From Rhodoplanes serenus (lineage in GTDB: Bacteria > Pseudomonadota > Alphaproteobacteria > Rhizobiales > Xanthobacteraceae), in the NCBI GenBank assembly GCA_009720755.1, contig WNKV01000013.1, positions 62,001-126,000 of the forward strand: a DNA stretch of 64,000 bases, given 5' to 3'. The notes under the pieces were generated by a model. The model searched no databases. It saw only the letters and a program-made list of their open reading frames with translations, and was not told the DNA's origin. A program made the translations under genes and the position numbers. Shown here one piece after another: positions 13,492 through 33,389 of the stretch. The stretch's first letter is position 1. Every line of letters starts with the position of its first letter.

Positions 13492-13836
13492 TCACACCAC
13501 CAGATCCTGATATTCGGAATGGGCGTCGATGAACCCGGCCACGTAGGGGCACACGGGTCGGACGCGGAGGCCACGCGATCGGGTCGCATCGAGGGCGCCG
13601 CGCACCAGTCGTGAGGCGACGCCGCCGCCCCGTAAGGTTTCCGGCACCTCGGTATGCGTGAAGACCAGCGTATCGCCCTCGCGGCGATAGGTCGCGATGG
13701 CGACCGCGTCGCGGATTGCCAGCTCGAAGCGGGAGCGGGCGGGATTGTCACGAACCTGCTCGGATGTGCGATGGTCTGTGTCGCGGTCGGGTTCGGTGTC
13801 GCGCATCGTGCGGTGGGCGGTGTCGTTGGTCATCAT
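13492..13836 (-). CDS. GNAT family N-acetyltransferase (short COG2388/YjdJ-like type)
   Basis: A 114-residue minimal GNAT protein. After a charged Asp/Arg/Thr-rich leader of about 33 residues comes the compact family core: RFELAIRDAVAIATYRREGDTLVFTHTEVP, then the acetyl-CoA-binding loop LRGGGVASRLVRGAL near residue 70, and VCPYVAGFIDAHSEY at the end. Two adjacent ATG codons (13836 and 13833) follow an AGGAGA site; either could start translation. The target is unknown. The 61-residue membrane peptide lies 10 bases upstream on the same strand, so they are likely co-transcribed. Confidence 0.87.
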   Translation of the reverse strand: MMTNDTAHRTMRDTEPDRDTDHRTSEQVRDNPARSRFELAIRDAVAIATYRREGDTLVFTHTEVPETLRGGGVASRLVRGALDATRSRGLRVRPVCPYVAGFIDAHSEYQDLVV

Positions 13837-14101: not shown

Positions 14102-14200
14102 ATTTTCCGGCGAAGTGGAGGCCGGTTCGCCGTCGAAAATGCGACCATGCGAGAACTTCTGGAGCGGAGCCCGATCGCGTTGGATCGGGTTCCGCTCTAG
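14102..14200 (+). repeat. Dispersed two-hairpin element, copy 2 (most complete)
   Basis: Two hairpins stand in tandem. ATTTTCCGGCGAA pairs with TTCGCCGTCGAAAAT (14102-14140). GGAGCGGAGCCCGATC pairs with GATCGGGTTCCGCTCT (about 14161-14198). The element ends in CTAG, whose minus-strand TAG (14199-14197) is the stop codon of the channel gene. It lies between two minus-strand genes. Confidence 0.9.
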
Positions 14201-15006
14201 CGGAGACCTTCGTCCGGAATGTCGAGCAGGAGCCCGCACGCCTTGCAGTGCACGGCATCGGGATCGTGCCGCAGGAGGCCGCAGCGCGGGCAGTGGAACC
14301 GCACCTTGGTGGGCTGGAGCAGGGTGCGCACGAGATTGAGAAACAGCGTCACCCCGAGGATCATGATCACCACCGAGATCAGCCGGCCCGAGGTGCCGGG
14401 CAGGGTGATGTCGCCGAAGCCCGTGGTGGTCAGCGCCGTCACGGTGAAATAGAGCGCGTCGGCGTAGTTGGCGATCGCCGGATTGGTGGCGCGTTGAGTC
14501 TCGTAGACGATGCCGGTCATCACGAAGATGAAGACCGAGAGATGGACCACCGCCAGCACCACCTCCTCGCGACGGCGGAACCACGCGCTGTCGGCGCGCA
14601 GACGCGCGAGAAGCTGATAGGTGTGCAGCAGCCGCACGGTGCGCAGCACCCGCAGGAAGCCGGCTGCCTCGCCGACCAGCGGAGCCAGGAACGACACGAT
14701 GGCGGCGAGATCGGCCCAGGTGGCGGGATGCATCAGCTCGCGCAGACGGCGGCGGGCGATGATGAGCCTCACGACAAAGTCGGTGGCGATGATCAGGCCG
14801 AACAGCACGTCGAGTTGCTCGATGCGGTCGGTGCGCGGCAGGAACGAGGTCACCACGATGAACACCAGCGTGAGCAGATCGAAGGCGAGCAGCCCGTAGC
14901 GGAAACGGTGCGCCTCCGGCGTGTCGGACTCGTAGTAGTGCCGCAGCGTCGCGATGAGGCGCCACGATGGTGTGCGAGGGCGGGCGGTCGGCGGGGGGCT
15001 CGTCAC
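14197..15006 (-). CDS. Voltage-gated-type potassium channel with C-terminal zinc ribbon
   Basis: A 269-residue six-helix ion channel. Membrane helices lie near 37-54, 65-85, 98-116, a short S4-like stretch with spaced arginines (RVLRTVRLLHTYQLLARLR, about 119-137), then 149-167 and 208-228. The selectivity filter TTGFGD is at 194-199. After the pore, CPRC (239-242) and CKAC (254-257) form a four-Cys zinc-ribbon-like tail instead of the usual RCK domain. The start is GTG at 15006 with GAGGAG seven bases upstream. The stop codon is supplied by the neighbouring repeat element. Gating by voltage is inferred from S4. Confidence 0.88.
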   Translation of the reverse strand: MTSPPPTARPRTPSWRLIATLRHYYESDTPEAHRFRYGLLAFDLLTLVFIVVTSFLPRTDRIEQLDVLFGLIIATDFVVRLIIARRRLRELMHPATWADLAAIVSFLAPLVGEAAGFLRVLRTVRLLHTYQLLARLRADSAWFRRREEVVLAVVHLSVFIFVMTGIVYETQRATNPAIANYADALYFTVTALTTTGFGDITLPGTSGRLISVVIMILGVTLFLNLVRTLLQPTKVRFHCPRCGLLRHDPDAVHCKACGLLLDIPDEGLR

Positions 15007-15126
15007 GGATATCTCCTCGCCGGATGGTAGCAGGCGGGGCAGGGGGAGCGAAGCGCAGCGTGTGCTGAACCTCGCGGCCGACCGGAACGACAAATCCCCT
15101 ATGGTTGGTTCCAGCATGGAGACCGC

Positions 15127-15789
15127 ATGGCGTTCGGATTCGTCTCGATCCCGCTCGACGAGGCCCGCGCCGGCCTCGACCTCGACGCGCATTTCGCTGA
15201 TCGCACCACGCTCGACGACATCGTCGTCGCGGCGCCGCGGCCATCCTTGCTGGTCGTGCGCTACAGCGGCAATCACGCGGTCTCGGCGGGTGATCTCGAC
15301 ATGGACGGGCTGGTGACCGCGAGCGTCGCCGGAGTCGTGGTCGACGGTGATTTGGAACTGTTCGGCGCCATCCTGAACCGGCGGGCGGAGGCGCAGCCGG
15401 CGTTCCTGTGGGTGCGCGGCAGCCTGCATTGCCGCGCTCTGGTGCTGCGGCGCATGGACGTGGTGGTCGATCGAAACCTCACGGCGGGCCTGGTGGTGGC
15501 GAACGGCGAGGACTGTCATCTCGCCATCGGCGGCGACGTCCACGCCGATCGGATGATCGTCGACGACGGCGCCGTGGCCAGCGTGGGCGGGCGGGTCGCC
15601 GCCAAGGGCTGGAACGGCTCGGCCGCCGCCCGCGTCGCGTTGCGGCGCAGCCGCTGGGCCGACGAGGTGCGGCCGGAGCTGCGCAAGGCGTTCCTCGGTC
15701 CGGACGGCGCGCTCGCCTGCACGGGCGGCAGCCTCGAGCTGGTCCAGGCGCTGCTCGACGGCCGCGACATCCTGCGGCCGGAACCATGA
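15127..15789 (+). CDS. Hypothetical protein, possible beta-helix (bactofilin-like)
   Basis: A 220-residue protein with GGAG upstream of the ATG. Short hydrophobic strands with Gly-Asp turns recur (VVVDGDLELFG, FLWVRGSLHC, VVVDRNLTAGLVVAN, HLAIGGDVHADRMIVDDGAV), which suggests a right-handed beta-helix like that of bactofilins. I cannot place it in a named family. No signal peptide or membrane helix is visible, so it is probably cytoplasmic. It diverges from the potassium channel across 120 bases and stands alone. Confidence 0.8.
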   Translation: MAFGFVSIPLDEARAGLDLDAHFADRTTLDDIVVAAPRPSLLVVRYSGNHAVSAGDLDMDGLVTASVAGVVVDGDLELFGAILNRRAEAQPAFLWVRGSLHCRALVLRRMDVVVDRNLTAGLVVANGEDCHLAIGGDVHADRMIVDDGAVASVGGRVAAKGWNGSAAARVALRRSRWADEVRPELRKAFLGPDGALACTGGSLELVQALLDGRDILRPEP

Positions 15790-15964
15790 GGGCGTTCGGG
15801 CCGGCGATGGTCGCGCCGGCTGCCCCCGGCGGCCCGTCGCCGAACACTCGCCCGCACGGCGCCGCCATGGCGGCGCAGGCGCGACACAATCGCGGCGCAG
15901 GGTCGGCCGCATCGATGATCAGGATCGGGCGGGATGGGACTCCGATGTCCCGGCGTTCGCTCCC

Positions 15965-16085: not shown

Positions 16086-18329
16086 GTGAGCAAGTCGGCG
16101 GGGCGAGGGGCTGTCCGGGCGCGACGCCCGGTGGGTCTCGGAATTCTGACATTCGTGCTGGTCACCGGCTTGGCGATCGTCGCGCCGGCCGTGGCCCAGC
16201 CGGTGGGCGACCCGCGGGTCGAACGAGGGCGCCCGCCGATCGGCGCGGCGCGGCCGGCCTTCCGCGGGCCTGCGGTTCACCCGCCGGCGGGTCGCGCGCC
16301 CGCCATGATGATGCCGGGTCCGCGCGGACCTTCGGCTCACCCCTCCGGCTCGTTTCCCGGCGCGGGGGCGCCGCCGCCCGGGCTCGCCCGGCCGGGTTTT
16401 GGTCGGCCCGGCTTGGCTGGTCCCGGCCGGCCCGGCTTGGCCGGCCCCGGTCGGCCCGGAATGGCCGGTCCCGGACCAGCCCGCCCCGGACGGCCCGAGG
16501 TGGGCGGCGTCCGCCCCGGCGGGTTGCCGCGCCCCGCCGGACCGCCCGCGACCGCCGGCAGTCGGCCGGGTGTCCAGCCCGGCTTGTCCCGCCCGGAGAT
16601 CGCCGGTCGCGGTCCCGGCGGCATGGTCGGACGTGGCCCCGAAGGGCGGCCCGGATGGTCACGCCCCGGCGTGCTGCCGCGGCCCGGTGTGCTGCCGCGG
16701 CCGGGTGGCCCGGGAGCACCGGGGATCGCCCGACCGGGACTCCCAAGACCCGGCTTCGGCCAGCCTGGCTTCGCGCGTCCTGGCTTCGCGCGTCCCGGCC
16801 TCGCCGGCCCGGGGATCGCCCGTCCCGGCTGGGGAGGGCCCGGACCGGGGCTGCCGGGACGGCTGGGGCCGTTCCGCTCGCCGGCCGCCGCCGCCTGGGC
16901 GGTGATGCGGCCCCGCTTCTACGTGCCGCCGCCGCCGAGCGTCGGGCCGCCTCCCGGCCTCGGCATCGGCCGCACCTTGCACGAGCGCACCTACAGCGGC
17001 CTGCCGCCGCGCCAGGAGACCCGCTTCGTCCAGCGCGAGGTGGTGGTGCAGGTCGCCGACACGGTGCCGCGTGCCGAGGTCGAGGCGACGGCCCGCCGGC
17101 TCGGCATCACCATGGTCGAGCAGCACGGCTTCGCCGGCCGCACGCTCTACCAGTTCCGGGCCGCCGAGGGCCGGGATGTGCGCGACGTCATCCGCGGCTT
17201 GGAGCGCAATCGCATCGTCGCCTCGGCGCAACCCAACTACGTGTACCGGCTCGACCAGGCCGTGACGGTGCCGGTCGATGCGGCCGCGTCCCCCACACCC
17301 GCACCCGCGGCAGCCCCGCCCGCACCGGCCCCGCCCGCCGCCGCGGAAGACCCGCTGCCGCCCGGCGATCCGAGCCAGTACACCGTGGAACGCCTGCGCC
17401 TCGCCGCGGTGCACGAGAAGGCGCGCGGCCGCCGCATCGCGGTCGCGGTGATCGATTCCGACGTCGATGCCCGCCACCCGGATCTGCACGGCGCCGTGGT
17501 GGAGCGCTTCGATCCGGGCGGCGCCGCGGCGCGCCCGCATGTTCACGGCACCGGCATGGCGGGCGCCATCGTGGCCAAGTACCGGCTGCGCGGCGTGGCG
17601 CCCGACGCCACCATCGTGGCCGTCAAGGCGTTCGACGAGCGCGACCGCGGCCCCGAGGCGACCACCTTTCAGATCCTCAAGGGCATCGACCACGCCATGC
17701 GGCGCGGCGTGCGGGTGATCAACATGAGCTTCGCCGGCCCGCACGACGCGATGATCGCCCGCAAGCTCCAGGAAGCCTACGACAAGGGCATCGTGCTGGT
17801 CGCCGCGGCCGGCAATGCCGGGCCGAAGTCGCCGCCGCTCTATCCGGCGGCCGATCCGAACGTCATCGCGGTGGGGGCCACCGACCGCGCCGACAAGCCG
17901 TTCGCCCAGGCGAGCCGCGGCAACCATGTCGCGGTGGCGGCGCCGGGTGTCGACATCCTGGTGCCGGCTCCCAACGGCGCCTACCAGCTCAGCACCGGCA
18001 CCTCGGTGGCGGCCGCCCATGTCAGTGCCGTCGTGGCCCTGATGCTGGAGAAGCGGCCGGACCTCACCCCCGACGAGGTGCGGGCCATCCTGGTCGGCAG
18101 CGCCACGGCGCTCTCCGGCGCGGCCGAGACCGAGGTGGGCGCCGGCCTGGTCGATCCGCTCAAGGCGCTCGACTACGAGCCGCCGGAGCCGGCCGAGCCG
18201 GCGGTCGCGGGCGGTCCCGACGTCACCCCGACGGTTCCGTCGAGCCGGCCTCCGGCTGCCGCGGCGATGCCAAGTCCAGCCCCGGCCACCACCCGGCCGG
18301 CCCAGGCGGAGGGGCGGCCGACACGGTGA
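16086..18329 (+). CDS. Exported S8 (subtilisin-like) serine protease with collagen-like Pro/Gly leader
   Basis: A 747-residue protein. A basic start plus hydrophobic core (LGILTFVLVTGLAIVAPAVA, 18-37) forms a signal peptide. Residues about 65-275 are low-complexity Gly/Pro/Arg/Ala repeats of the PGLAGPGRPG kind. Residues 314-390 resemble a propeptide domain. A Pro/Ala linker leads to the S8 catalytic domain (about 430-695): Asp457 in AVIDSDVD, His487 in HVHGTG, oxyanion Asn577 in AAGNAGP, and Ser640 in STGTSVAAAH. The tail is Pro/Ala-rich. The start is GTG at 16086. It opens a same-strand cluster with the repeat protein, the propeptide-like protein and the metzincin. The leader could serve as a surface stalk or a protease-sensitive spacer; that is inference. 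Confidence 0.92.
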   Translation: MSKSAGRGAVRARRPVGLGILTFVLVTGLAIVAPAVAQPVGDPRVERGRPPIGAARPAFRGPAVHPPAGRAPAMMMPGPRGPSAHPSGSFPGAGAPPPGLARPGFGRPGLAGPGRPGLAGPGRPGMAGPGPARPGRPEVGGVRPGGLPRPAGPPATAGSRPGVQPGLSRPEIAGRGPGGMVGRGPEGRPGWSRPGVLPRPGVLPRPGGPGAPGIARPGLPRPGFGQPGFARPGFARPGLAGPGIARPGWGGPGPGLPGRLGPFRSPAAAAWAVMRPRFYVPPPPSVGPPPGLGIGRTLHERTYSGLPPRQETRFVQREVVVQVADTVPRAEVEATARRLGITMVEQHGFAGRTLYQFRAAEGRDVRDVIRGLERNRIVASAQPNYVYRLDQAVTVPVDAAASPTPAPAAAPPAPAPPAAAEDPLPPGDPSQYTVERLRLAAVHEKARGRRIAVAVIDSDVDARHPDLHGAVVERFDPGGAAARPHVHGTGMAGAIVAKYRLRGVAPDATIVAVKAFDERDRGPEATTFQILKGIDHAMRRGVRVINMSFAGPHDAMIARKLQEAYDKGIVLVAAAGNAGPKSPPLYPAADPNVIAVGATDRADKPFAQASRGNHVAVAAPGVDILVPAPNGAYQLSTGTSVAAAHVSAVVALMLEKRPDLTPDEVRAILVGSATALSGAAETEVGAGLVDPLKALDYEPPEPAEPAVAGGPDVTPTVPSSRPPAAAAMPSPAPATTRPAQAEGRPTR

Positions 18330-18701
18330 ATGACGTTTCCGTGTGGCGCGCCCTTCAGGGTTGTGCTCGGTGCGGCTTCGGTCAGACTGAATTCCGGCGT
18401 GAGCCTTCCGTCTGAAACGGATGCTCCGTCACGTCCGACGGTGTGGCCAGAAGATTGAGTTCATTGAAGATCAGGCTTCGTCCACTGGTTGATTGCTCCT
18501 CGTAACCGATCGTATAGGTGGATCGACTTACTGCGGATTTTCGCATTTCGATAACAGAGTTACAATTTCAGTTGAGTTTTAGTGCCTTCTTTTTGTCTAA
18601 TTTCGAGCATTGGTTGTGGTCGTTTTCGACCGTTCTGCTGTCGATGGCTCTGCTATCACTCGTTCTGCCATCACTCGTTCTAGCCGTCGGAGGAGGCCGC
18701 C
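18330..18701. promoter_or_regulatory. AT-rich leader region with 15-bp direct repeat ahead of the repeat-protein gene
   Basis: These 372 bases are visibly poorer in GC than the flanks, most so at 18500-18610. A direct repeat ATCACTCGTTCT at 18655-18666 recurs at 18670-18681 (15-bp spacing), directly before the GGAGGAGG ribosome site of the next gene. No RNA family or reading frame with a ribosome site was recognised. It is probably the promoter of the three-gene unit that follows. Confidence 0.45.
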
Positions 18702-19124
18702 ATGGCGGGATGGCCCTATGTGACGTCTGGCCCCGCGTCGGACCCGTCTGCACAACCTGCTCCGGGCGACGCGGACGAGATCGGCGATCCGCCGGGCAGC
18801 CCGGCCTATTTCGGGACGGCCGCCATGGCGAGCATGGCCGCAGGCGCGCCGCCGACCAGCAACTGGCCGGCTCCGGCGGTGGGATCGCCCCCCGGCAGCG
18901 CCGCCTATTACGGGACCGCCGTAGCGGTCGCCGCCGCGAGTGCCGCGTCCGCGCGCCCCGACGACGATGTCGGCGATCCGCCCGGCAGCCCCGCCTATTT
19001 GGGCACAGTCGGACCGTCGCCGGCCGAGCCTTCCGCCCAACGCCCCGGCGAAGCCGACGGGCCGCCGGTTGCGGTCGGCGACCCGCCGGGCAGCCCGGCC
19101 CATTTCGGTAACGCGGCCCTCTGA
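18702..19124 (+). CDS. Hypothetical protein with four VGDPPGSPAYFGTA-type repeats
   Basis: A 140-residue protein with a strong GGAGGAGG site. Four near-identical motifs of about 13 residues occur at 27-40 (IGDPPGSPAYFGTA), 60-73 (VGSPPGSAAYYGTA), 90-103 (VGDPPGSPAYLGTV) and 125-138 (VGDPPGSPAHFGNA). Linkers of about 16-21 residues rich in Ala, Pro, Asp and Ser separate them. There is no Cys, signal peptide or membrane helix. The conserved Gly-Asp-Pro-Pro-Gly-Ser core with variable linkers looks like a multivalent ligand or a processed multi-core substrate. It lies 140 bases before the propeptide-like gene and downstream of the subtilase. I do not recognise the family. Confidence 0.8.
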   Translation: MAGWPYVTSGPASDPSAQPAPGDADEIGDPPGSPAYFGTAAMASMAAGAPPTSNWPAPAVGSPPGSAAYYGTAVAVAAASAASARPDDDVGDPPGSPAYLGTVGPSPAEPSAQRPGEADGPPVAVGDPPGSPAHFGNAAL

Positions 19125-19263
19125 GCCGCCCCCTCCCGAATTGATCCTCCGGCGCCGGTGACGGCGCCCGCCCGGGTCGCCGCACCGCTGGTGCGGTCCC
19201 GACCAAACCCGTCGTCCCGTGCCATCCGGGCCCCATGCCGATGCGGTGCGCCGGGGAGGCCGC

Positions 19264-19611
19264 ATGTCTGAATGTCTCGTCGTTCTCTCGGCCGCCACCG
19301 CGGCCGACGTGCTGGCCGCGCTGCGCAGCCGGTTTCGGGTGACCAGCGCGCTGCCGCCGCGTCTGGCGGTGGTCGATGTCGATGATGCGGAGGCCGAGTC
19401 CGCACTGGCGCGCCTGCGCGCGACGCCGGGGGTCGAGGCGGTGGTCGCCGATCCGGCGGCGCCGATCCCGGGTGGGCTCACGGCGGACGAGCTGCTGTTC
19501 GTCGATGCCTGGCGGCAGCGGCCCGCGCTGCGCAGCAAGGCGCGTCCGGGCGAGGGGTTGCCCTGGGACGCGGAGGGGTTCGAACCGCCCGATCGCCCGC
19601 GTCGCCGCTGA
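19264..19611 (+). CDS. Small protein with inhibitor-I9/propeptide-like fold, related to the metzincin N-terminus
   Basis: A 115-residue protein starting MSECLVVLSAATAADVLAAL with GGGGAGG upstream. Residues 3-63 have the beta-alpha-beta pattern of subtilase propeptides (I9), ending in ALARLRATPGVEAVVADP. No catalytic domain follows. The tail (FVDAWRQR..SKARPGEGLPWDAEG, about 79-105) matches the metzincin's EAFQLR..SAKQQRPRDGQPWNMQG at 81-109 by eye. The two neighbours therefore share a module. It ends 40 bases before the metzincin gene and is surely co-transcribed. It may be an inhibitor or chaperone of one of the clustered proteases; that role is inferred. Confidence 0.78.
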   Translation: MSECLVVLSAATAADVLAALRSRFRVTSALPPRLAVVDVDDAEAESALARLRATPGVEAVVADPAAPIPGGLTADELLFVDAWRQRPALRSKARPGEGLPWDAEGFEPPDRPRRR

Positions 19612-19651
19612 GCGCTCGGATCGACACCACGACCACTATGGGAGGTGCGAC

Positions 19652-21655
19652 ATGGCCGGTGACTTGAACTTCCCGGAATATCTCAGCGTGCTCGACGATG
19701 CGGCGGCCGCCTTGTCGGTGCATGCCGCCCCGCGGCCGCTGCGCTTCGTTCACCGCTACGGCGATCGTGTGCTGATCGGGACCGACCCGGTGCCGCTGCC
19801 GGCCGGGACGGCGCAGCGGGCCCTCACCGAGGCAAGCGCGCCCGGTGCCGCCCTGCCGGCTGACCTCGACGAGACCGAGCGGCTCGGCGTCGAGGCGTTC
19901 CAGCTCCGCCTCCAGCCCGAGTTCCTGAGCGCCAAGCAGCAGCGGCCGCGCGACGGCCAGCCGTGGAACATGCAGGGCTGCACCGACGTCGCCCAGGCGC
20001 TGCCCGAGGCGGCGCGCGCCGCCCTGGCGGCCGAGGCGGCGGCGCCGACCAGCGCCTATCTCGAAGGCAGCGTCGCGGTCGGCATCGTCATCGTCGAAGG
20101 CCCGACCGCCGATCTCCAGTTCAGCGCGGCGGAGCGCACCAAGGTCGTGGCCGAGGTGCAGAACGGGTTGAGCTGGTTGGCCGCCCAGAACTCGGCGGCC
20201 GGCATCTCGTTCAGCTACGACATCCGCACGGTCCGCATCGCCACGCCGCCGAATCCCGGCGCCGCCGATCTGGAGGCGGTATGGCGCGATCCCGCCATGG
20301 CGGCGCTCGGCTACACAGCCGACTGGAACGGCGTCGTGCGCTATGTCGAGGACAATCGCACGCGCTTCCGCACCCGCTGGACCTATGTGGGCTTCTTCAC
20401 CAAGTACCCGCTGTTCCACTTCGCTTATGCGAGCATCGGCGGTCCTCGCCTGGTGATGGACTATGCCAACGACGGCTGGGGACCCGACAACATCGACCGC
20501 GTGTTCACCCACGAGAGCGGGCACGTCTTCGGCTGCCCCGACGAGTATGCGGCGAGCGGCTGCACCTGCGGCGGCTCTTGGGGCCGCTTCGGCCGCCCCA
20601 ACTCGAACTGCGAGAACTGCGCGCCCGGCGGCGGCGTCGCCTGCCTGATGAAGGCCAACACCTTCGCGATGTGCAACGTCACGCCGGCGCATCTGGGCTG
20701 GCTGCGGCCGTTCCCGCCGGTGCGCGGCAATCCGGTGCTGATCCAGGGCCGCTTCGGCACACCCGGCAACTTCGAGCTGCTGGTTCCCGGAGCCGCCGAC
20801 GGGCTGCTGTTCTCCTGGCGCGACAACAGCCGGCCCGAGATGTTCTGGGCGCTGCCGCTGCCCTTCGGGCTCGGCGCCGGAGCGGTCGACGGCGTCGGTA
20901 TGATCCAGAGCAATTTCGGCTCGCCCGGCAATCTCGAAGCGGTCGCGCGGGTGGGCGACCGGCTGCACTTCTACTGGCGCGACTCCGGGCCGGCGTTCCG
21001 CTGGAACGGGCCGTTCCCGTTGTTCGGCGGCGCCCGCGGCAATCCGGTGCTGATCCAGAGCCGCTTCGGCAGCAAGGGCAATTTCGAGCTGGCGGTGCCG
21101 GCGGCGTCCGGCGGCGGCTTCCTGTTCGCGTGGCGCAACAACGACGTTCCGGCGATGCCGTGGTCGGCGCCGGTGCGCGTCGGCGGCGGCGAGATCGAGG
21201 CGCTGACGCTGATCCAGAGCCGCTTCGGCTCGCCCGGCAATCTGGAGCTGATCGCCCGGGTCGGCGACCGGCTGCACTTCTACTGGCGCGACTCCGGGCC
21301 GGCGTTCCGCTGGAACGGGCCGTTCCCGCTGTTCGGCGGCGCGCGCGGCAATCCGGTGCTGATCCAGAGCCGCTTCGGCAGCAAGGGAAATTTCGAGCTG
21401 GCGGTGCCGGCCGCGTCCGGTGGCGGCTTCCTGTTCGCCTGGCGCAACAACGATGTGCCGGCGATGCCGTGGTCGGCACCGATGCGTGTCGGCCGCGGCG
21501 AGATCGAGGCGCTGACGCTGATCCAGAGCAGCTTCGGGACGCCGGGCAATCTGGAGCTGATCGCCCGGGTCGGCGACCGGCTCGATTTCTACTGGCGCGA
21601 CTCGGGGCCGGCGTTCCGTTGGAACGGGCCGTTCCCGATCACCACGTTGCCGTGA
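19652..21655 (+). CDS. Metzincin-type zinc metalloprotease with C-terminal lectin-like propeller repeats
   Basis: A 667-residue protein. Residues about 25-110 resemble the preceding 115-residue protein. A peptidase domain (about 130-355) carries HESGHVFGCPD (His288, Glu289, His292, Asp298), the HExxHxxGxxD metzincin pattern. A Cys-rich segment (CTC, CENC, ACLM, MCN) follows, with a Met-turn candidate at Met334. Residues 358-667 hold six blade-like repeats of about 51 residues (NPVLIQSRFGSKGNFELAVP ... LFAWRNN / LHFYWRDSGPAFRWNGPFP). These resemble PLL-type fucose-binding propellers. No signal peptide is seen, so an export route is unclear. Blades 2-6 are nearly identical at DNA level. Confidence 0.87.
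   Translation: MAGDLNFPEYLSVLDDAAAALSVHAAPRPLRFVHRYGDRVLIGTDPVPLPAGTAQRALTEASAPGAALPADLDETERLGVEAFQLRLQPEFLSAKQQRPRDGQPWNMQGCTDVAQALPEAARAALAAEAAAPTSAYLEGSVAVGIVIVEGPTADLQFSAAERTKVVAEVQNGLSWLAAQNSAAGISFSYDIRTVRIATPPNPGAADLEAVWRDPAMAALGYTADWNGVVRYVEDNRTRFRTRWTYVGFFTKYPLFHFAYASIGGPRLVMDYANDGWGPDNIDRVFTHESGHVFGCPDEYAASGCTCGGSWGRFGRPNSNCENCAPGGGVACLMKANTFAMCNVTPAHLGWLRPFPPVRGNPVLIQGRFGTPGNFELLVPGAADGLLFSWRDNSRPEMFWALPLPFGLGAGAVDGVGMIQSNFGSPGNLEAVARVGDRLHFYWRDSGPAFRWNGPFPLFGGARGNPVLIQSRFGSKGNFELAVPAASGGGFLFAWRNNDVPAMPWSAPVRVGGGEIEALTLIQSRFGSPGNLELIARVGDRLHFYWRDSGPAFRWNGPFPLFGGARGNPVLIQSRFGSKGNFELAVPAASGGGFLFAWRNNDVPAMPWSAPMRVGRGEIEALTLIQSSFGTPGNLELIARVGDRLDFYWRDSGPAFRWNGPFPITTLP
20880..21651 (+). 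repeat. 309-bp tandem repeat inside the metzincin gene
   Basis: The segment with GCTGCACTTCTACTGGCG at 20962 recurs at 21271, and in diverged form at 21580, exactly 309 bases apart each time. That equals 103 codons, or two propeller blades. Long runs are identical between the first two copies, which points to recent in-frame duplication or gene conversion. Confidence 0.9.
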
Positions 21656-21770
21656 CCACAGCACCGCCGTGACGGGCGGGGCGGCCGGGCGAACTTTCAG
21701 CAGCGGCCGACGTTGGACCGGGCGGCGCGCATCCCGCGCGCCCGGTCCTTCACCGACGGCAGGCACGCCC

Positions 21771-22739
21771 ATGATCAAGCTCGGCTACAAGCTGATGTCC
21801 GAGGAGCACGGCCCGGCCGACCTGGTCCGCAACGCCGTGCGGGCCGAGGAGGCGGGTTTCGACTTCGCGGCCATCTCGGACCACTTCTTCCCGTGGCTGG
21901 AGGAGCAGGGGCACTCGCCGCTCGCCTGGACGGTGCTCGGCGCCGTCGCCCAGGCCACTCGGCGCATCGGCCTGATGACCGCGGTGACCTGCCCGACCTT
22001 CCGCTACCATCCGGCCATCGTGGCCCAGGGTGCCGCCACGGTGGCGCTGCTGAGCAACGACCGCTTCACGCTCGGGCTCGGCGCCGGCGAGCGGCTCAAC
22101 GAGCACGTCGTCGGCGTCGGCTGGCCGGGCCGCGCCGAGCGGCAGGAGCGGCTGGCCGAAGCGATCGACATCGTCCAGGGCCTGTTGTCGGGCGAAATGA
22201 CCAACTACAGCGGCCGCTGGCTCAGGCTCGACCACGCGCGCTTGTTCGACCGCCCCCAGCGCAAGGTGCCGGTGGTGCTGGCGGCCGGTGGCCCCAAGGC
22301 GGCTCGCCTCGCCGGCGAGAAGTGCGACGGGCTGATGGCCACCGAGGCGCGAACCGACCTGATCGACGCCTACAAGGGCGCCGGCGGCCGCGGGCCACGC
22401 TACTGCGAGGTGGCGCTGTGCTGGGCCGAGCGCGAGGACGACGCCCGCCGCACTGCGCATCACTATTTCCGCTGGTCGGCGACCGGCTGGCCCGTGATGG
22501 CCGAATTGCCCGATCCCGAAGGCTTCGCGGCCGCCAGCGAGAGCGTGACGCCGGAGATGGTGGGCAAGCTGGTGAGCTGTGGCCCGTCGGCCGAGCAGCA
22601 TCTCGCCGCCATCGACAAGTACGTCCAGGCCGGCTTCGACCACATCGTGCTGACCCAGGTGGGGCCGCGCCAGGAGGAGTTTCTGGCCTTCGCGCGGCGC
22701 GAGCTCATGCCCGCGCTCGGTCGCCGCAAGGCGGCGTAG
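21771..22739 (+). CDS. LLM class F420-dependent oxidoreductase (TIGR03557-like)
   Basis: A 322-residue luciferase-like TIM-barrel oxidoreductase of the group annotated as F420-dependent. It opens MIKLGYKLMSEEHGPADLV, then GFDFAAISDHFFPWLEEQGHSP, VTCPTFRYHPAIVAQGAATV, LGLGAGERLNEHVVG and VVLAAGGPKAARLAGEKCDG. The ATG at 21771 gives the family length; the frame's earlier part has no ribosome site. Use of F420 rather than FMN is inferred from the family; no F420 biosynthesis gene is in this window. It lies alone between the protease cluster and citrate synthase, with which it converges. Confidence 0.9.
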   Translation: MIKLGYKLMSEEHGPADLVRNAVRAEEAGFDFAAISDHFFPWLEEQGHSPLAWTVLGAVAQATRRIGLMTAVTCPTFRYHPAIVAQGAATVALLSNDRFTLGLGAGERLNEHVVGVGWPGRAERQERLAEAIDIVQGLLSGEMTNYSGRWLRLDHARLFDRPQRKVPVVLAAGGPKAARLAGEKCDGLMATEARTDLIDAYKGAGGRGPRYCEVALCWAEREDDARRTAHHYFRWSATGWPVMAELPDPEGFAAASESVTPEMVGKLVSCGPSAEQHLAAIDKYVQAGFDHIVLTQVGPRQEEFLAFARRELMPALGRRKAA

Positions 22740-22778
22740 CGGCGGCTGGGCGCCGCCGCTACAGGGGCCCGTCAGCGA

Positions 22779-24083
22779 CTAGATGCGTCGCTTCATGTCG
22801 ACATAGTCGCGCCGGGTGTGGCCCGTGTAGAGCTGGCGCGGCCGGCCGATCTTCTGGCTCGGGTCGGCGATCATCTCGGTCCACTGGGCGATCCAGCCCG
22901 CCGTGCGGGCGAGCGCGAACACCGCCGTGAACATGGCGGGCGGGAAACCCATCGCCCGCAGCGTCAGGCCCGAGTAGAAATCGAGATTCGGGAACAGCTT
23001 CTTCTCGGTGAAGTAGTCGTCCCGCGCGGCGGCCTGCTCCAGCTCCAGGGCGACGTCGAACAGGCGGTCGTCGCTGCGCGTCGCGGTCAGCACCTCGCGG
23101 CAAATGTCCCGCATCAGCTTGGCGCGCGGATCGTAGCTCTTGTAGACGCGGTGCCCGAAGCCCATCAGGCGGAACGGATCGTCCGGGTCCTTGGCGCGGG
23201 CGAGAAACTCCGGGATGCGCTCGGGCTTGCCGATCTCGGCCAGCATCTTCAGCGCCGCCTCGTTGGCGCCGCCATGCGCCGGCCCCCACAGGCAGGCCAC
23301 GCCGGCCGCGATGCAGGCGAACGGGTTGGCACCCGACGAGCCGGCGAGCCGCACCGTCGAGGAGGAGGCGCCCTGCTCGTTGTCGGCGTGCAGGATGAGG
23401 ATGCGGTCCATGGCGCGGGACAGCACCGGGTCCACCTTGTACTCCTCGAACGGCACCGAGAAGCACATGCGCAGGAAGTTGGAGGCGTAGTCGAGATCGT
23501 TCTTCGGGTACACGAAGGGCTGGCCGGTCGTGTACTTGTAGGCCATCGCGGCGATCGTCGGCATCTTGGCGATCATGCGGATCGAGGCCAGCGTGCGCTG
23601 GTGCGGATCGGCGATGTCGGTGGAGTCGTGATAGAACGCCGACATGGCGCCGACGCTGCCGACCATCACGGCCATCGGATGCGAGTCGCGGCGGAAGCCC
23701 TGATAGAAGCGCGCCATCTGCTCGTGCACCATGGTGTGATGCGTGACGCGGTAGTCGAAATCGTGCTTCTGCCGCACCGTCGGCAATTCGCCGTAGAGCA
23801 GGAGATAGCAGGTCTCCAGGAAGTCGCCGTGCGCGACCAGGTCCTCGATCGGGTAGCCGCGATAGAGCAGGACGCCTTCGTCACCGTCGATATAGGTGAT
23901 CTTCGACTCGCAGCTCGCCGTCGAGCTGAAGCCGGGATCGTAGGTGAACAGGCCGGCCTTGCCGTAGAGCTTGCCGATGTCGACGACGGCCGGCCCGGCG
24001 GTGCCGTGGTGGAGCGGGAACGTGTGGCTCTCGCCGTCGATCGTGAGGGTTCCGGTGCCGTGGGCGGCGCGGGAGTCGGCCAT
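22779..24083 (-). CDS. gltA: Citrate synthase
   Basis: A 434-residue type II (hexameric) citrate synthase, first step of the TCA cycle (oxaloacetate plus acetyl-CoA). It has the N-terminal TFDPG-like [27 protein letters not shown] region, [16 protein letters not shown] with the first catalytic His, [16 protein letters not shown] with the second, and [15 protein letters not shown] near the catalytic Asp. The start at 24083 has GAGGAG six bases upstream; the 14 further in-frame codons lack one. It is monocistronic and faces the LLM oxidoreductase gene. Confidence 0.97.
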
Positions 24084-24342
24084 GATCTCCTCGGGTGCGA
24101 GGTCGGGGGAAACGGGACGCAGCAACGCGACGCAGCAAGTTCGGGATAACAGGTTCGAGATCGCAGGCTCGAACGCCAGGTCCGACCATCACGTCCGACG
24201 CCGTGACCCCATCCAGGATGCAGGATCGGCGGTGACGAGGGTCGAACGGTGCCCGGTGTCGCGCCAGTTTGCCCGATGCTAGAGCATCTTGACGGCCCCG
24301 GCAACGCACTCGGCGAGCACGGTGCCGGGCCTTTCGCGTCGG

Positions 24343-25215
24343 TCAACGGCGCCGGACGAGGTCGAGCAGGCGCGCCCAAGGGCCCGGCCGTGGCAGTGTC
24401 GCCAGGGCTGTGTCCATGGCGCGCGCGAACTCGGCCGTCATGGCGGCCAGGCACCGCGGCAGCTCCGGGCCGCCATGGATGCGCGCGAACACCGCGTCGT
24501 AGTCGGCGAGCACCGCGGCGGTGGTCTCCACGATGGACTCGTAGCGGCACCAGACGATGAACTCGTGATACGGCAGCTTCTCGCGCAGCGGCACGTCCTC
24601 GCTGACCACGATGCAGCCGCGCGACAGCGCCGGCAGCACCCGGAACTCCTCGATGGCATGGTGGTGCGCGGTCTGGTGCGGATTGACGATCACCTTGGCG
24701 CTCGAATAGAGCCGCTCCAGGCCCGGGCGGTCGAACACGCCGGTGATGTTTCTGTATCCCGGAAATCGCTCGGTCAGCGCCGCCACGATCGGGGCCCGGC
24801 GCGGCTCGTCGACGTTGTTGAAATTGGTGAGGACGTCGATCGGACGGTCGCGCCCGGCCGCGTACGCGAAGGGAAGCGACGGCGCGTAGACGATCTTGCG
24901 CAGGATCGCGTCCGGAAAGATGCCGCTGGTGGCGAGGTTGACGATGTTCGGCACGTTGTACTCGACGACGATGTCGGCGGTCTCGTAGAGCTCGGGATTG
25001 ACGACGCGCACCAGGTAGGTCTCGCGCGGATCGAACATCGAGGGGATGACGCCGGCCGGGGTTCCCGGCGCGACGCTGCGGCCGCCCGGCAGCACCAGGT
25101 TGTGCTCGTCCTGGAAGAAGATCGTCAGCCGTGACGGCTTCACCCGGCGCGCCGCGAGATGACGCAGCACCAGGTCGCGGTTCATCAGCAGAGGTGAATC
25201 GTTGACGAGCGGCAT
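24343..25215 (-). CDS. Putative GT-B-type glycosyltransferase-like protein
   Basis: A 290-residue protein. The C-terminal half holds a GT-B-like donor-site pattern, NPHQTAHHHAIEEFRVLPAL followed by SRGCIVVSEDVPLREKLPY, preceded by RFPGYRNITGVFDRPGLERLY. The N-terminal half (VRVVNPELYETADIVVEYNV, SLPFAYAAGRDRPIDVLTNF) fits the acceptor domain. It resembles CgeB/YkvP-like glycosyltransferases of unknown target. The start is uncertain: MPLV at 25215 is used, with MNRD ten codons later as the alternative. Its neighbours are unrelated. Confidence 0.6.
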   Translation of the reverse strand: MPLVNDSPLLMNRDLVLRHLAARRVKPSRLTIFFQDEHNLVLPGGRSVAPGTPAGVIPSMFDPRETYLVRVVNPELYETADIVVEYNVPNIVNLATSGIFPDAILRKIVYAPSLPFAYAAGRDRPIDVLTNFNNVDEPRRAPIVAALTERFPGYRNITGVFDRPGLERLYSSAKVIVNPHQTAHHHAIEEFRVLPALSRGCIVVSEDVPLREKLPYHEFIVWCRYESIVETTAAVLADYDAVFARIHGGPELPRCLAAMTAEFARAMDTALATLPRPGPWARLLDLVRRR

Positions 25216-25393
25216 CGCGGCCCCCGGGGCGGCTGCGTGTCGCACGGGACAGGGCCGGAGGGCAAGGTGGCGGCGCCCATCATGGGCCACGAAGCCAATG
25301 CGGGGTCCGGACCGGCCGCGGAGGTCGATCCGGGGGCACCCCACCCGATCCGGACCACCTCCGCCGATCAGCCGACCGCGTCAGTCGACCGCA

Positions 25394-25900
25394 TCAGTTG
25401 ATCCGGCGCCAGGTCTGCGCCTTGCAGACCAGGCCGCCCAGCGCGCAGCCCTCCAGCTTCAGTGACGAGGCCCCCTGCATGGTGATGTAGCCCGTGTAGG
25501 TCTTGCCGTCCTGGGCGTTGTAGACGCTGCCGGCCCACTGCTCGGGCTTGCCGCTCGGCTTCATGTTGAGGACGATCGGCACGCCGAGCAGCGGGCGGTT
25601 GCGCTTACCGGCGTCGGTATTGTTGACGTCGAGCTTCGGCTTGCCGGTCGCCGGATCGTTGGGCTCCCGCAGCCACGAGATGGAGCCGCACAGGGCCCCG
25701 CCGCAACTGCCGATGGCAATGCGCGAGCGGCCGTCCTCGGTCAGCCAGGTCCCCTTGGGGTCGGCGGCCGCGGCCGGCGTGGCGAGCGTGGCCAGGAGCA
25801 GGGCGCCGATCATCAGGGCGCCGTGAGCGACGGCGCGAGGCAGCGCGAGGGCGTCGCAGGCGAGAGCGACGGACGTCGAAGTCCGGACCGAGAACGTCAT
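25394..25900 (-). CDS. DUF2147 domain-containing exported protein
   Basis: A 168-residue protein with a signal peptide (hydrophobic core GALMIGALLLATLATPAAAA, cleavage after about residue 46) and a DUF2147 domain: KGTWLTEDGRSRIAIGSCGG, LCGSISWLREPNDPATGKPKLD, NRPLLGVPIVLNMKPSGKPEQWAG, YNAQDGKTYTGYI, LKLEGCALGGLVCKAQTWRR. Two Cys pairs suggest disulfides in the periplasm. The family is common in alphaproteobacteria and its function is not established. A purine-rich AAGGGGG site precedes the ATG at 25900. Confidence 0.9.
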   Translation of the reverse strand: MTFSVRTSTSVALACDALALPRAVAHGALMIGALLLATLATPAAAADPKGTWLTEDGRSRIAIGSCGGALCGSISWLREPNDPATGKPKLDVNNTDAGKRNRPLLGVPIVLNMKPSGKPEQWAGSVYNAQDGKTYTGYITMQGASSLKLEGCALGGLVCKAQTWRRIN

Positions 25901-26277
25901 GGCGTTTCCCCCTTCCGCCCGATTGGGGCGGTGATCGTGCTGGTTGTGGATCGTTGGTCTTGGGCGCGGGCTAGGCCGCTGGACCTGCCCATTGTGCCGG
26001 GTCGCCCACGCGGCCGCGAGCCGGCGTCCCTCGGTCATTTGGCCGCGGTGCGGCAGAACTATCGCTGCGCGGGGAATTGGCTGCCCTGCGGTGCGTGGAA
26101 CCGCGCGACGGGGCGTGGCGACAGGGCGAGCCGGAGCGAGTAGCTCGGGCGACAGGCCGGTTCGGGACTTCGGGCGCTCGCACGGCGTGACGGGACCCGT
26201 TTCGGCGCCGGCCTCGGGGGAGGGGGGCGGGGGCGGCGCCTACTCCGGCTGCCGTCGCGCTCCAGCCGGGTTACGGC
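25901..26277. other. Intergenic region without a recognisable gene
   Basis: A 377-base gap between the DUF2147 gene and the coiled-coil gene, both on the minus strand. It must contain the DUF2147 promoter. No palindrome, terminator or RNA was recognised. A GC-rich G-run (26219-26236) is the only marked feature. Confidence 0.5.
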
Positions 26278-26607
26278 TCACCGGCCGTCCCGCTCCTTCA
26301 AGACCTCGCGCATGGTGTCTGCGATCAGGCCGGGCAGGGTGGCGACGAGGCCGGAGAGCTTGCCGTCGATACTTGTCACTTTCCCGTTCAGCTCCCCGGC
26401 GATCTCCTCGACCTTCCGGCCGAGATCGTCGAGCTTCAGTTCCACCCGGTCGAGCCGCGTTTTGATGGCGGCGAGGTCGTCGGAATTGCGGCGCGTCTCG
26501 GTGAGCACATGGCGCGTCACCATCTTCTCGCCGTCGACCTCGCGCTCGACGATGTCGACGCGGGTGGCGAGCTGCTCGAACTCCGTGCGGGTCACGTAGT
26601 CGGTCAT
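26278..26607 (-). CDS. Hypothetical coiled-coil protein
   Basis: A 109-residue highly charged protein. Heptad-like hydrophobic spacing (LATRVDIVEREVDGEK, IKTRLDRVELKLDDLGRKVEEIAGEL) predicts one long coiled coil, followed by a short amphipathic end (LVATLPGLIADTMREVL). It resembles small Hyphomicrobiales proteins often found near toxin or phage genes, but no partner is visible here. It lies 113 bases beyond uvrA on the same strand. Function unknown. Confidence 0.7.
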   Translation of the reverse strand: MTDYVTRTEFEQLATRVDIVEREVDGEKMVTRHVLTETRRNSDDLAAIKTRLDRVELKLDDLGRKVEEIAGELNGKVTSIDGKLSGLVATLPGLIADTMREVLKERDGR

Positions 26608-30207: not shown

Positions 30208-30996
30208 TCAGTAGCGCGCCATCACCGGAGCGCCACCGCCGAAGCGGTAGTTCAGGCCGATCTTGGCGGTGTGGATGCCGTTGAGGTCGTGATCCCACGA
30301 ATAGGCGAGGCCGTTGCCGGGATTGATGCCGGTGACCGTCTGGGTGCCGTTGGTGCCGATGTACATGTACTCGGCCTTGATGCTCCAGTTCAGGTCGAAC
30401 GCCCACTCGATGCCGCCGCCGACCGTCCAGGTGGCCTTGGTCTCGCTCGCGGAGGCCGCCATGGTCTGGAGTCCCCAGCCGTCGTAGATCGCAGTCTCGA
30501 CGTTCACGAAGGCCGCGCCGCCCTTCACGTAGATCATGGCGCGATCCCACGAGTAGCCGAGGCGGCCGGTGATCATGCCGTACCAGTCGCCGATCTTCGC
30601 CGACGACAGCACGCCCGGCGCGACCGCGCCGTTGTTGGCCAGGATCGGATCGTACGCGGAGCCTTCCAGGCTGAGGTAGCCGATTTCGCCTTCGAGGCCG
30701 AGCACGAAGGGCGAGCCGACCGGCTGCCAGTTGCAGCCCACCGTGCCACCGCCGATGAAGCTCGAGTCGGCCTTGTAGCCCCAGCCCCCGACGGCGGTGT
30801 AGCCGTTCAGGTCCCAAGCGGTGACGTCACCGTCGGCCCACGCGCCGCCGACATAGCCGCCGATGTAGCAGCCAGTCCACGAGAACACAGGCGCGATGAC
30901 CGGCGGCGGTGCCTTAACGGGCATGCGCATATCGGCCGCAGAGGCGACACCAGCCATGGCCAGAATGGCGGCGCTCGCGAGCAGAACCTTCTTCAT
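30208..30996 (-). CDS. Outer-membrane beta-barrel protein (Omp25/Omp31-like), paralogue 1
   Basis: A 262-residue porin-like protein. The signal peptide is [20 protein letters not shown]. The mature part opens with [23 protein letters not shown], then alternating beta strands (GFEGEIGY-like [59 protein letters not shown]) and ends [16 protein letters not shown] with a terminal aromatic, as barrel proteins do. GAGGGGGG precedes the ATG. It is the first of three tandem paralogues, each with its own promoter gap and terminator. The role is probably structural or a general pore. Confidence 0.93.
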
Positions 30997-31161
30997 GGGA
31001 ACCCCCCTCTCGGAAAAGATGTCGCAGCATAGATCGAGGCGGGTTGTGGAAGGTGACATTTTCGCCACAACTCCCGGAAAGATCCGCGCTATACGCAACT
31101 AGGCCGATTAGTCTAGTCGTGGGGCTTCAGCCATGGTGGAGGCGTGCCGTCGGCACGAAAA

Positions 31162-31188
31162 GAGCCCCGGGGCGGAACCCCGGGGCTC
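31162..31188 (-). terminator. Terminator of the second outer-membrane protein gene
   Basis: A perfect 11-bp stem (GAGCCCCGGGG against CCCCGGGGCTC, 5-nt loop) is followed on the minus strand by TTTTCG, 28 bases after the stop codon. Confidence 0.87.
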
Positions 31189-31216
31189 GATTGGCGTGCG
31201 AAGGCGTGCGTGATGA

Positions 31217-31999
31217 TCAGTAACGGGCCATGACCGGCGCGGCGCCACCGCCGAAGCGGTAGTTGAGGCCGACCTTGGCGGTGTGAATGCCGCCGTTGTC
31301 GTGGTCCCAGCAATAGGTGCCGGGGGCCGGCGCCGTGCCGCCGTACACGCCGCAGGTCGCCAGCGTGTCGTTGAGGCCGATATACATGTACTCGGCCTTG
31401 ATGCTCCAGCTCGGCGCCAGGGCGTACTCGATGCCGCCGCCGACCGTCCAAGTGGTGACGGTGTCGCTGGTGGACATGCCGAAGCCGGTCAGGCTGTCGT
31501 AGATGGACGACTCGACATTGAGGAAGGCGGCGCCGCCCTTGACGTAGAGCAGGGCGCGATCCCACGCGAAGCCGAGGCGGCCGGTGATCATGCCGTACCA
31601 GTCGCCGATCTTGCTGGCGGCCACGATGGTCGGATCGAGCGGATCGGCGCCCGAGCCTTCCAGGCTGATGTAGCCGAGCTCGCCCTCGAGGCCGAGGACG
31701 AACTGCGAGCCGACCGGCTGCCAGTTGCAGCCCAGCGTGCCGCCGCCGATGACGCTCGAATCGGAGCTGTAGCCCCACGAGCCGACCCCGGCGAAGCCGT
31801 TGCGGTCGTAGACCGAGTAGTCGTCCGACCAGGCGCCGCCGACGAAGCCGCCGATGTAGCAGCCGGTCCACGAGAACGCCGGAACCACCATGGGCGCAGG
31901 CGGTGCCTTCACGGGCATGCGGGCCGACAGGTCCGCCGCCGATGCGGCGCCGATCATGCCGAGCGCGGCGACAGTCGCGAGCAAGACAGTCTTGGTCAT
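31217..31999 (-). CDS. Outer-membrane beta-barrel protein (Omp25/Omp31-like), paralogue 2
   Basis: A 260-residue barrel protein with signal peptide MTKTVLLATVAALGMIGAASA and the same architecture as its neighbours: MPVKAPPAPMVVPAFSWTGC, then [54 protein letters not shown], and [15 protein letters not shown] at the end. It is closer to paralogue 3 than to 1 in the [14 protein letters not shown] block. Variation is concentrated in the segments expected to be surface loops (YSVYDRNGF, CGVYGGTAPAPGTYC). AAGGGGGG precedes the ATG. Confidence 0.93.
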   Translation of the reverse strand: MTKTVLLATVAALGMIGAASAADLSARMPVKAPPAPMVVPAFSWTGCYIGGFVGGAWSDDYSVYDRNGFAGVGSWGYSSDSSVIGGGTLGCNWQPVGSQFVLGLEGELGYISLEGSGADPLDPTIVAASKIGDWYGMITGRLGFAWDRALLYVKGGAAFLNVESSIYDSLTGFGMSTSDTVTTWTVGGGIEYALAPSWSIKAEYMYIGLNDTLATCGVYGGTAPAPGTYCWDHDNGGIHTAKVGLNYRFGGGAAPVMARY

Positions 32000-32489
32000 G
32001 AGACCCCCCTTGTTGTGAACGAGATCAAACCATAGGGGTTTTCCGTACAGAAAGGGTGTCATATCGGCCACAGCCTTATGCGCCAAATGGAAAATTTGGT
32101 AATTTAAAACCTCCGTCTCAAGAAAATGGTCCCGAATGCCGCCGTGAGGGCTCGACGGTCCGGTGCGGGCATTCTGGTGTAAGTAATGGTGAGGGTAGCA
32201 TAAAACCTAATTGCTGCGGCCGGAACGTCGAGTCGACGACATAGGGTGGCCGGCGCCGAATAAGGGCTGCCGGAAACGCTGTTCGCTCGGCCGCGGCCGG
32301 GCGAGGGGCGCCGCACTCGGCTGCTCCGCCATAGCCGGAGGGGGCGCGCCCACACGAATGTCGATTCGGCCTGTCGCCTGGTGCGCGCTTCTCGGCCGGG
32401 ACGGCAGCAACAGAAATGGGGATGGGGAGAAGGCAGAACGACGCGGCCGTGACGGTGAAGAGCGGTCGAGGTCCGCCGCTACCGACGCT
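32000..32489. other. Intergenic region upstream of outer-membrane paralogue 2
   Basis: About 490 bases between two outer-membrane protein genes. The part nearest the gene (32040-32220) is AT-richer than its surroundings and should hold the promoter. The rest is GC-rich without a credible frame. A degenerate copy of the dispersed two-hairpin element follows at 32490. Confidence 0.5.
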
Positions 32490-32515
32490 GAACCGGCGTT
32501 CACTTCGCCCGACAA
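32490..32515 (-). repeat. Degenerate fragment of the dispersed two-hairpin element (copy 4)
   Basis: The plus strand GAACCGG..TTCACTTCGCCCGACAAT aligns with GAACCGGACTCCACTTCGCCGGAAAAT of copy 3, with four to six mismatches. Only the first-hairpin half is left; the second hairpin is missing. Confidence 0.55.
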
Positions 32516-32551
32516 TCCCTATGCGTTCGGGGCACGGTGCCTCCAATGCAA

Positions 32552-32577
32552 AAGGCCCCGGGCATGCCCGGGGCCTT
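32552..32577 (-). terminator. Terminator of the third outer-membrane protein gene
   Basis: The perfect 26-base palindrome AAGGCCCCGGGC..GCCCGGGGCCTT is followed on the minus strand by TTTTGC, 24 bases after the stop codon. Confidence 0.85.
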
Positions 32578-32600
32578 CGCTCGACGCGAGGTCGATAGGA

Positions 32601-33353: not shown

Positions 33354-33389
33354 TAACGGCCCCTCCATTCCTAGAAATACCGAAGTCCC

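Follow-up and report, generated by a model that had tools for sequence, protein, structure and literature searches.

A metzincin gene and a free-standing copy of its pro-region form an apparently transmissible bacterial cassette

Stand-alone propeptide-like inhibitors exist for cysteine proteases as well as for serine proteases, the latter being the targets of the MEROPS I9 propeptide-like inhibitors (Pleurotus peptidase A inhibitor 1, yeast peptidase B inhibitor and Arabidopsis subtilisin propeptide-like inhibitor 1), TgMIC5 and malarial SUB1-ProM; we know of none that acts on a metzincin. The protein described here as P0003 is likewise a small, separate, propeptide-like product, but its presumed target is the metzincin P0004, and it differs from the I9-type inhibitors in being homologous in sequence to the pro-region of its own enzyme and in belonging to a compact cassette found across several bacterial phyla. 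SUB1-ProM, according to the excerpted report, is encoded next to subtilase genes and inhibits SUB1 (PMC6993865). The Tannerella KLIKK protease-potempin pairs resemble our gene pair in that a small inhibitor gene lies directly before the protease gene; however, the excerpt describes potempins as small lipoproteins (PMC7296668), whereas in P0003, a paralogue of a propeptide, neither a signal nor a lipobox is evident, and P0004 has no evident signal peptide. Listeria Mtz-Tim is also a metzincin encoded as a pair with its presumed regulator, but Tim is, in the portion of the paper available, a TIMP-like lipoprotein that is cut by Mtz, both being secreted (PMC8235301), whereas P0003 is a copy of a propeptide. 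As far as the excerpts of these papers extend (PMC6993865, PMC7296668, PMC8235301), none of the SUB1-ProM, Tannerella or Listeria pairs contains a protein paralogous to the pro-region of a metzincin beside it. A metzincin paired with a copy of its own propeptide is also absent from the best-ranked matches listed in searches of the open-licence literature (the best 6 to 12 of larger result sets) and from the excerpts of three further papers (PMC8195603, PMC3482391, PMC4404884).

The window analyzed here is a stretch of 64,000 nucleotides from Rhodoplanes serenus, in which a sequence-only reading had picked out four same-strand genes as a single unit of unfamiliar composition. All four open reading frames are present (Table 1), and P0002 to P0004 all have ribosome-binding sites rich in purines. 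As set out below, the unit in this genome consists of these three genes, which follow an AT-rich leader, and its core is the two-gene cassette of P0003 and P0004, hereafter the dyad of partner and enzyme.

Table 1. Features of the locus, in window numbering.
Feature	Position	Strand	Remarks
Subtilase P0001	16086-18329	+	747 aa; Peptidase_S8, 6.3e-46
AT-rich leader before the three-gene unit	18330-18701	+	372 bases; 52% GC; 48% at 18420-18690
Repeat protein P0002	18702-19124	+	140 aa; four GDPPGSPAYFG-type repeats
P0002 repeats	18783-18815, 18882-18914, 18972-19004, 19077-19109	+	GDPPGSPAYFG-type
Partner P0003	19264-19611	+	115 aa; free-standing copy of the N-terminal pro-region of metzincin P0004
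Partner tail motif RPGEGLPWDAEGF	19543-19581	+	acid E97; [DE] at this position in 12/12 partners
Metzincin P0004	19652-21655	+	667 aa; pro-region, catalytic domain, six-motif blade region
Cis module RPRDGQPWNMQGC	19943-19981	+	R98-C110; D101 candidate acid switch, C110 alternative
P0004 catalytic domain	20066-20701	+	residues 139-350; six conserved cysteines
P0004 zinc motif HESGHVFGCPD	20510-20542	+	
P0004 Met-turn M333	20648-20650	+	
P0004 blade region	20717-21652	+	six [QL][SG].FG.[KPR]GN[FL]E motifs

The subtilase is a common-family neighbour and no component of the cassette. In the family, 33 of 61 genomes encode a P0001 homologue with an E value of 1e-30 or lower; the metzincin, by contrast, was detected in one of 199 genomes of the order and one of 385 of the class, both times the window's own. 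In a genome of the same genus (G1715) the subtilase is syntenic and lies in a 15 kb stretch without P0002, P0003 or P0004, flanked on one side by counterparts of the window genes at 15127-15789 (matched through an overlapping reading frame, 14197-15912) and 13492-13836, and on the other by counterparts of the gene at 26278-26607 and of a gene that by eye is uvrA-like. The difference exceeds the trio, as the same stretch also lacks the other window genes from 21669 to 26038. P0002 has no match anywhere in G1715; the absence of P0003 and P0004 refers to the 15 kb stretch. Eight dyad loci from other genomes, six of them with flanks of up to 8 kb and two with about 1.5 kb, contain no subtilase match, and across the 11 dyad loci compared no gene clustered with the subtilase. 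The distribution in the family and the synteny in G1715 without the trio speak strongly against a four-gene system that includes the subtilase, which we reject. That P0003 should nevertheless regulate the subtilase is highly improbable: the genes adjoin on one strand, and P0003 scores 15.2 bits, below the cut-off of 21, against the Fervidolysin prodomain model PF22148 (E 0.029), which the prodomain of the subtilase itself passes, but a profile of 12 partners aligned to a 23-sequence subtilase-prodomain profile with a probability of only 1%, so that the profiles lend no support to P0003 as a subtilase propeptide, although the two may share a fold. As to the subtilase itself, its assignment was sound, whereas the collagen-like leader ascribed to it is Gly/Pro/Arg-rich with collagen triplets no better than chance, the longest run of glycine at every third residue being 3, equalled by 4780 of 5000 shuffles. 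A crude scan gives it a signal-like segment with a hydropathy of 2.6, and among the PADLOC models it hits the one for subtilases in general (9.8e-32), with a weaker match to IetS.

A homologue of P0003 and a homologue of P0004, or its remnant, stand side by side in 12 of 12 genomes, the window's included, and no partner gene was found alone among the 12. Relatives of P0004 came from six genomes (Sphingomonas sp. JC676, Streptomyces scabichelini, a Synechococcaceae MAG, a Comamonadaceae MAG, Pseudoroseomonas coralli and Croceibacterium ferulae) and, among 398 drawn genomes of the window's phylum, from G225 and G229; G530, which has the blades only, was left out of the count. Searches with the partner profile added G1210 (297 genomes drawn), G1235 and G1386 (249 drawn), in each of which the enzyme adjoins the partner, and nothing new among 200 further genomes or five of one genus. 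These surveys are draws, in which the enzyme led to eight of the 11 other genomes and the partner to three. Among the 11 intact pairs the partner comes first in three, the enzyme comes first in four and the two genes converge in four, with gaps of -4 to 91 nt. In G229 (L037:9945-10592) the partner gene adjoins a remnant of the enzyme, a 54-aa reading frame that holds the catalytic-domain end only, and here the partner has outlasted the enzyme. The strongest evidence that the two proteins work together is that their linkage outlives changes of order and strand; a pairing kept in such distant bacteria points to a protease whose regulator is made separately. In a comparison of neighbours in the window and 11 loci, the dyad alone is general. 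The expectation that would have undone the proposed unit, that its genes should mostly occur apart in other genomes, thus divides: it describes the subtilase and not P0003 and P0004, and the picture for P0002 is mixed, this gene lying beside the dyad in two of the 12 dyad genomes and having weak matches elsewhere. We call the unit a three-gene one in this genome because P0002 was found beside just one other dyad, that of the closest relative.

The dyad occurs in Pseudomonadota, Actinomycetota and Cyanobacteriota, the last from a MAG. In a tree of catalytic domains, the Streptomyces enzyme groups with that of the cyanobacterial MAG (support 100/99), that of the Comamonadaceae MAG with the Croceibacterium one (95/93), and the window's with that of G1386 (80/90). 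The G1386 enzyme is the nearest to the window's, at 75% identity over 212 columns, and carries the same blades. Horizontal transfer would be the simplest reading of these groupings, although a MAG contig can be misbinned. Distances among enzymes and among partners are weakly correlated (Mantel r 0.44, n 11), 499 of 20,000 permutations being as high. By eye, transposase-like genes adjoin the dyad at L036:3587-6019 and L011:6873-7343, which would fit mobility. A plasmid search gave no match for P0003 or P0002, and models of defence systems gave none for P0002 to P0004. A phage origin of the trio was considered and set aside: a scan of viral contigs with search alignment A1 returned 12 pattern matches, none of them confirmed as a relative, and PHROGs held nothing for P0002 to P0004 at E 0.01. 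The pairing is well supported, and the dyad is apparently a transmissible cassette of a protease and a copy of its propeptide.

P0003 had been described as stand-alone and propeptide-like and as sharing a domain with a second gene. Both points are borne out, except that the propeptide is that of the metzincin and the shared domain is the whole pro-region of P0004. For its putative role, the same reading's suggestion of a possible inhibitor or chaperone still seems the best on offer. When the 12 partners were aligned with the N-terminal regions of 11 enzymes, hhalign returned a probability of 97.5% and an E value of 5e-12, the 101 aligned columns taking in almost all of the partner; P0003 thus has the homology to the pro-region of a neighbouring protease that is expected of a propeptide-like inhibitor. 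In genome searches the partner HMM also matches the pro-region of the enzyme, at best with 1.6e-7 (G918). In a joint tree the 12 partners are split from the 11 cis modules with a support of 98/99, most inner branches being unresolved and the bootstrap not settled, and this split would fit one old duplication followed by joint inheritance. The most conserved part of the partner is a short C-terminal tail and not the N-terminal domain. An export signal or lipobox is not evident in any of the 12 partners, as judged by eye and by crude hydropathy (maximum 1.2-2.1, against 2.6 for the subtilase).

The description of P0004 as a metzincin fused to lectin-like blades agrees with HESGHVFGCPDEY, which it contains, and with its six blade motifs. 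The metal-binding residues of HExxHxxGxx(H/D), namely H, E, H and D, are present in 11 of 11 enzymes and the Gly in five, and M333, in CLMKAN, is invariant in the eight enzymes aligned, the Met-turn being assigned by eye. Like snapalysin (M7), P0004 has a zinc motif of the HExxHxxGxxD type, and snapalysin is its only sequence match in the PDB, a weak one (E 0.045-0.076). However, P0004 is much larger, has a pro-region of which a separate copy exists and a blade region, and lies below the family cut-offs (PF02031, 15.6 bits against 25; NCBIfam, 20.4 against 300), as do 10 of 10 relatives for the Pfam model. Nor does it conform to the matrixins, since RPRDGQPW has Asp in place of Cys and the third ligand position is Asp, not His. 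No export signal is evident in P0004 in a crude hydropathy scan, despite which the six conserved cysteines would suit an oxidising compartment more than the cytoplasm. In most relatives the blades are exchanged for other lectin-type modules or are absent; the enzyme C-termini are swappable lectin-type modules. Four plasmid records match P0004, each through the blade region. Among them, the matrixin WP_202677761.1 of a Paenibacillus sonchi plasmid (L086, 4206-5924) has blades 52% identical to residues 359-651 of P0004 and, by hydropathy, no evident signal peptide either, and its PRCGLPD, which we take to be a cysteine-switch sequence, resembles RPRDGQP of P0004. It differs from P0004 in having HExxHxxGxxH, a Cys at the switch position and another prodomain, presumably of the peptidoglycan-binding type. 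Related blades on other plasmids belong to a galactose-oxidase-like protein and a hypothetical protein. A match to IN_DBD_C within the blades (E 0.0024, below the cut-off) was taken as spurious.

The cis module RPRDGQPWNMQGC of the enzyme aligns with the partner tail RPGEGLPWDAEGF, and the acidic residue within them, Asp or Glu in all 12 partners, is Asp in seven of the 11 enzymes, a contrast that is barely significant (one-sided Fisher 0.037) and drawn from related sequences. The four enzymes without it have Lys, Gln, Asn and Ala (Ala by eye), and in each case the partner keeps the acid. A Cys closes the cis motif in eight of the 11 enzymes, in L010 a Cys follows six residues later, and the partners have no counterpart, which leaves C110 as a candidate rival to D101 for the switch residue. 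In both models of P0004 this segment is of low confidence, with pLDDT under 50 over about residues 99-136. The accessible text of two papers reports switches based on aspartate for astacins, fragilysin-3 and karilysin, on Cys for myroilysin (PMC9629494) and on Cys23 for mirolysin (PMC8259862). Given the acid kept in the partners, the Asp in cis and the known aspartate switches, we propose an acid switch that would be held in cis and duplicated in trans.

The reading we favour, to which we give a probability of roughly 0.55, is a transmissible protease-regulator cassette in which a latent metzincin would be held in trans by a paralogue of its propeptide, possibly with an acid switch. P0004, in which no signal peptide is evident, would be locked in a latent state by its own pro-region, with the RPRDGQPWNMQGC segment crossing the active-site cleft and D101 (or C110) sitting on the zinc. 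P0003 probably goes back to an ancient duplication of that pro-region; it is encoded as a protein of its own, and its acid is conserved more strictly than that of the enzymes. Acting in trans, it would bind to the catalytic domain as an inhibitor and perhaps as a folding helper, and by doing so would keep stray or processed enzyme inactive inside the producing cell. The swappable lectin-type C-termini may then steer the released enzyme to glycan-bearing targets, while P0002, which accompanies the blade-bearing type in this lineage, is probably there as something that the enzyme binds or as its substrate. With a propeptide duplicated a single time and retained next to its enzyme while the gene order changed, the cassette would offer a clean, testable case of protease latency passing from cis to trans, it may be a natural source of selective metzincin inhibitors, and the swappable ends are a good place to ask what such proteases target. 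We are more tentative about a bolder form of this reading, and on balance doubt it: a mobile weapon-and-safety cassette of at least three phyla, in which a signal-less, lectin-armed metzincin would owe its latency in trans to the aspartate/glutamate switch of the duplicated propeptide, and some enzymes lacking the acid in cis would depend on their partner.

The structural comparisons bear on another role for P0003. Pro-regions are commonly intramolecular chaperones, and P0003 could be a dedicated chaperone or export escort acting on the catalytic core, with inhibition absent or incidental. The full-length model of P0004 is poor (pLDDT 51) and a shorter one is better; Foldseek found nothing at E 0.001 or better, the comparison extending to the families of the VIA list, and the matches, all weaker than that, include 6o38, titled as a chaperone-substrate complex and, we presume, a metzincin-like protease whose chaperone is encoded next to it. 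The linkage of the dyad suits an escort just as well. However, the best-kept part of the partner is an acidic tail of active-site type, for which a pure chaperone would have no need, and the enzyme already has a pro-region of its own, and we think it unlikely that P0003 is a chaperone in the first place.

Upstream of the trio, the AT-rich leader of the sequence-only reading is real. One stretch of it, 18420-18690, is at 48% GC against 70% for the window, and two of 2125 overlapping windows of the same length are as low. The related trio of G1386 (L039) also has an AT-rich leader, at 45% against 61% for the locus. No repeat family common to the two leaders was reported, each having been analyzed singly and otherwise compared by eye, and a scan of the window's leader for sigma-70 promoters gave no consensus site. 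The four repeats attributed to P0002 proved equally solid: the repeat pattern matches four times, and none of 100,000 composition shuffles reached more than one match. The copies differ synonymously from one another. In G1386 a homologue of 129 aa (L039:8975-9364) lies directly upstream of the dyad, 29 bases before the partner gene; it has the top score of 1443 reading frames and lies above 2000 of 2000 shuffles, both proteins being of low complexity and the alignment itself loose. A two-row profile of P0002 searched against 13 genomes gave strong matches only beside the dyads of the window's genome and G1386, with weaker ones elsewhere in G918 (E 0.03) and in the window's genome (E 0.35). The three-gene unit therefore stands in two genomes, which, to judge from the draws, belong to different families.

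P0002 might bind the blades as a ligand, or it might serve as a substrate. Its four near-identical short repeats, together with the short tail that is the most conserved part of the partner, also suit a scheme in which P0003, and here P0002 as well, would be substrates that P0004 cuts to free conserved tail peptides, making the metzincin a dedicated processing enzyme; there is precedent in the Listeria metzincin, which according to the excerpt cleaves the TIMP-like protein encoded alongside it (PMC8235301). We consider this scheme quite unlikely, as the partner is homologous over nearly all its length to the pro-region of the enzyme, which points to binding of the enzyme, and P0002 went undetected at 10 of the 12 dyads. 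By eye, the Gly/Ala-rich C-terminal tail of the L010 enzyme (L010:7989-10325) has a stretch, GAPGTASYEPG, that resembles the P0002 repeat.

A few neighbouring genes deserve mention. A gene that fuses Trypsin_2 and Endonuclease_NS adjoins the dyad in two loci (L015:5185-7569 and L039:6019-8370), possibly as a second conflict-type enzyme or through shared ancestry, and one further pair of neighbour clusters recurs among the window and 11 loci, one member in three loci and the other in two. The window itself encodes, at 47685-48857, a DUF4062 plus TPR protein, a combination that occurs in conflict systems, and, at 30208-33368, three adjoining genes whose products are, by eye, similar outer-membrane-porin-like proteins.
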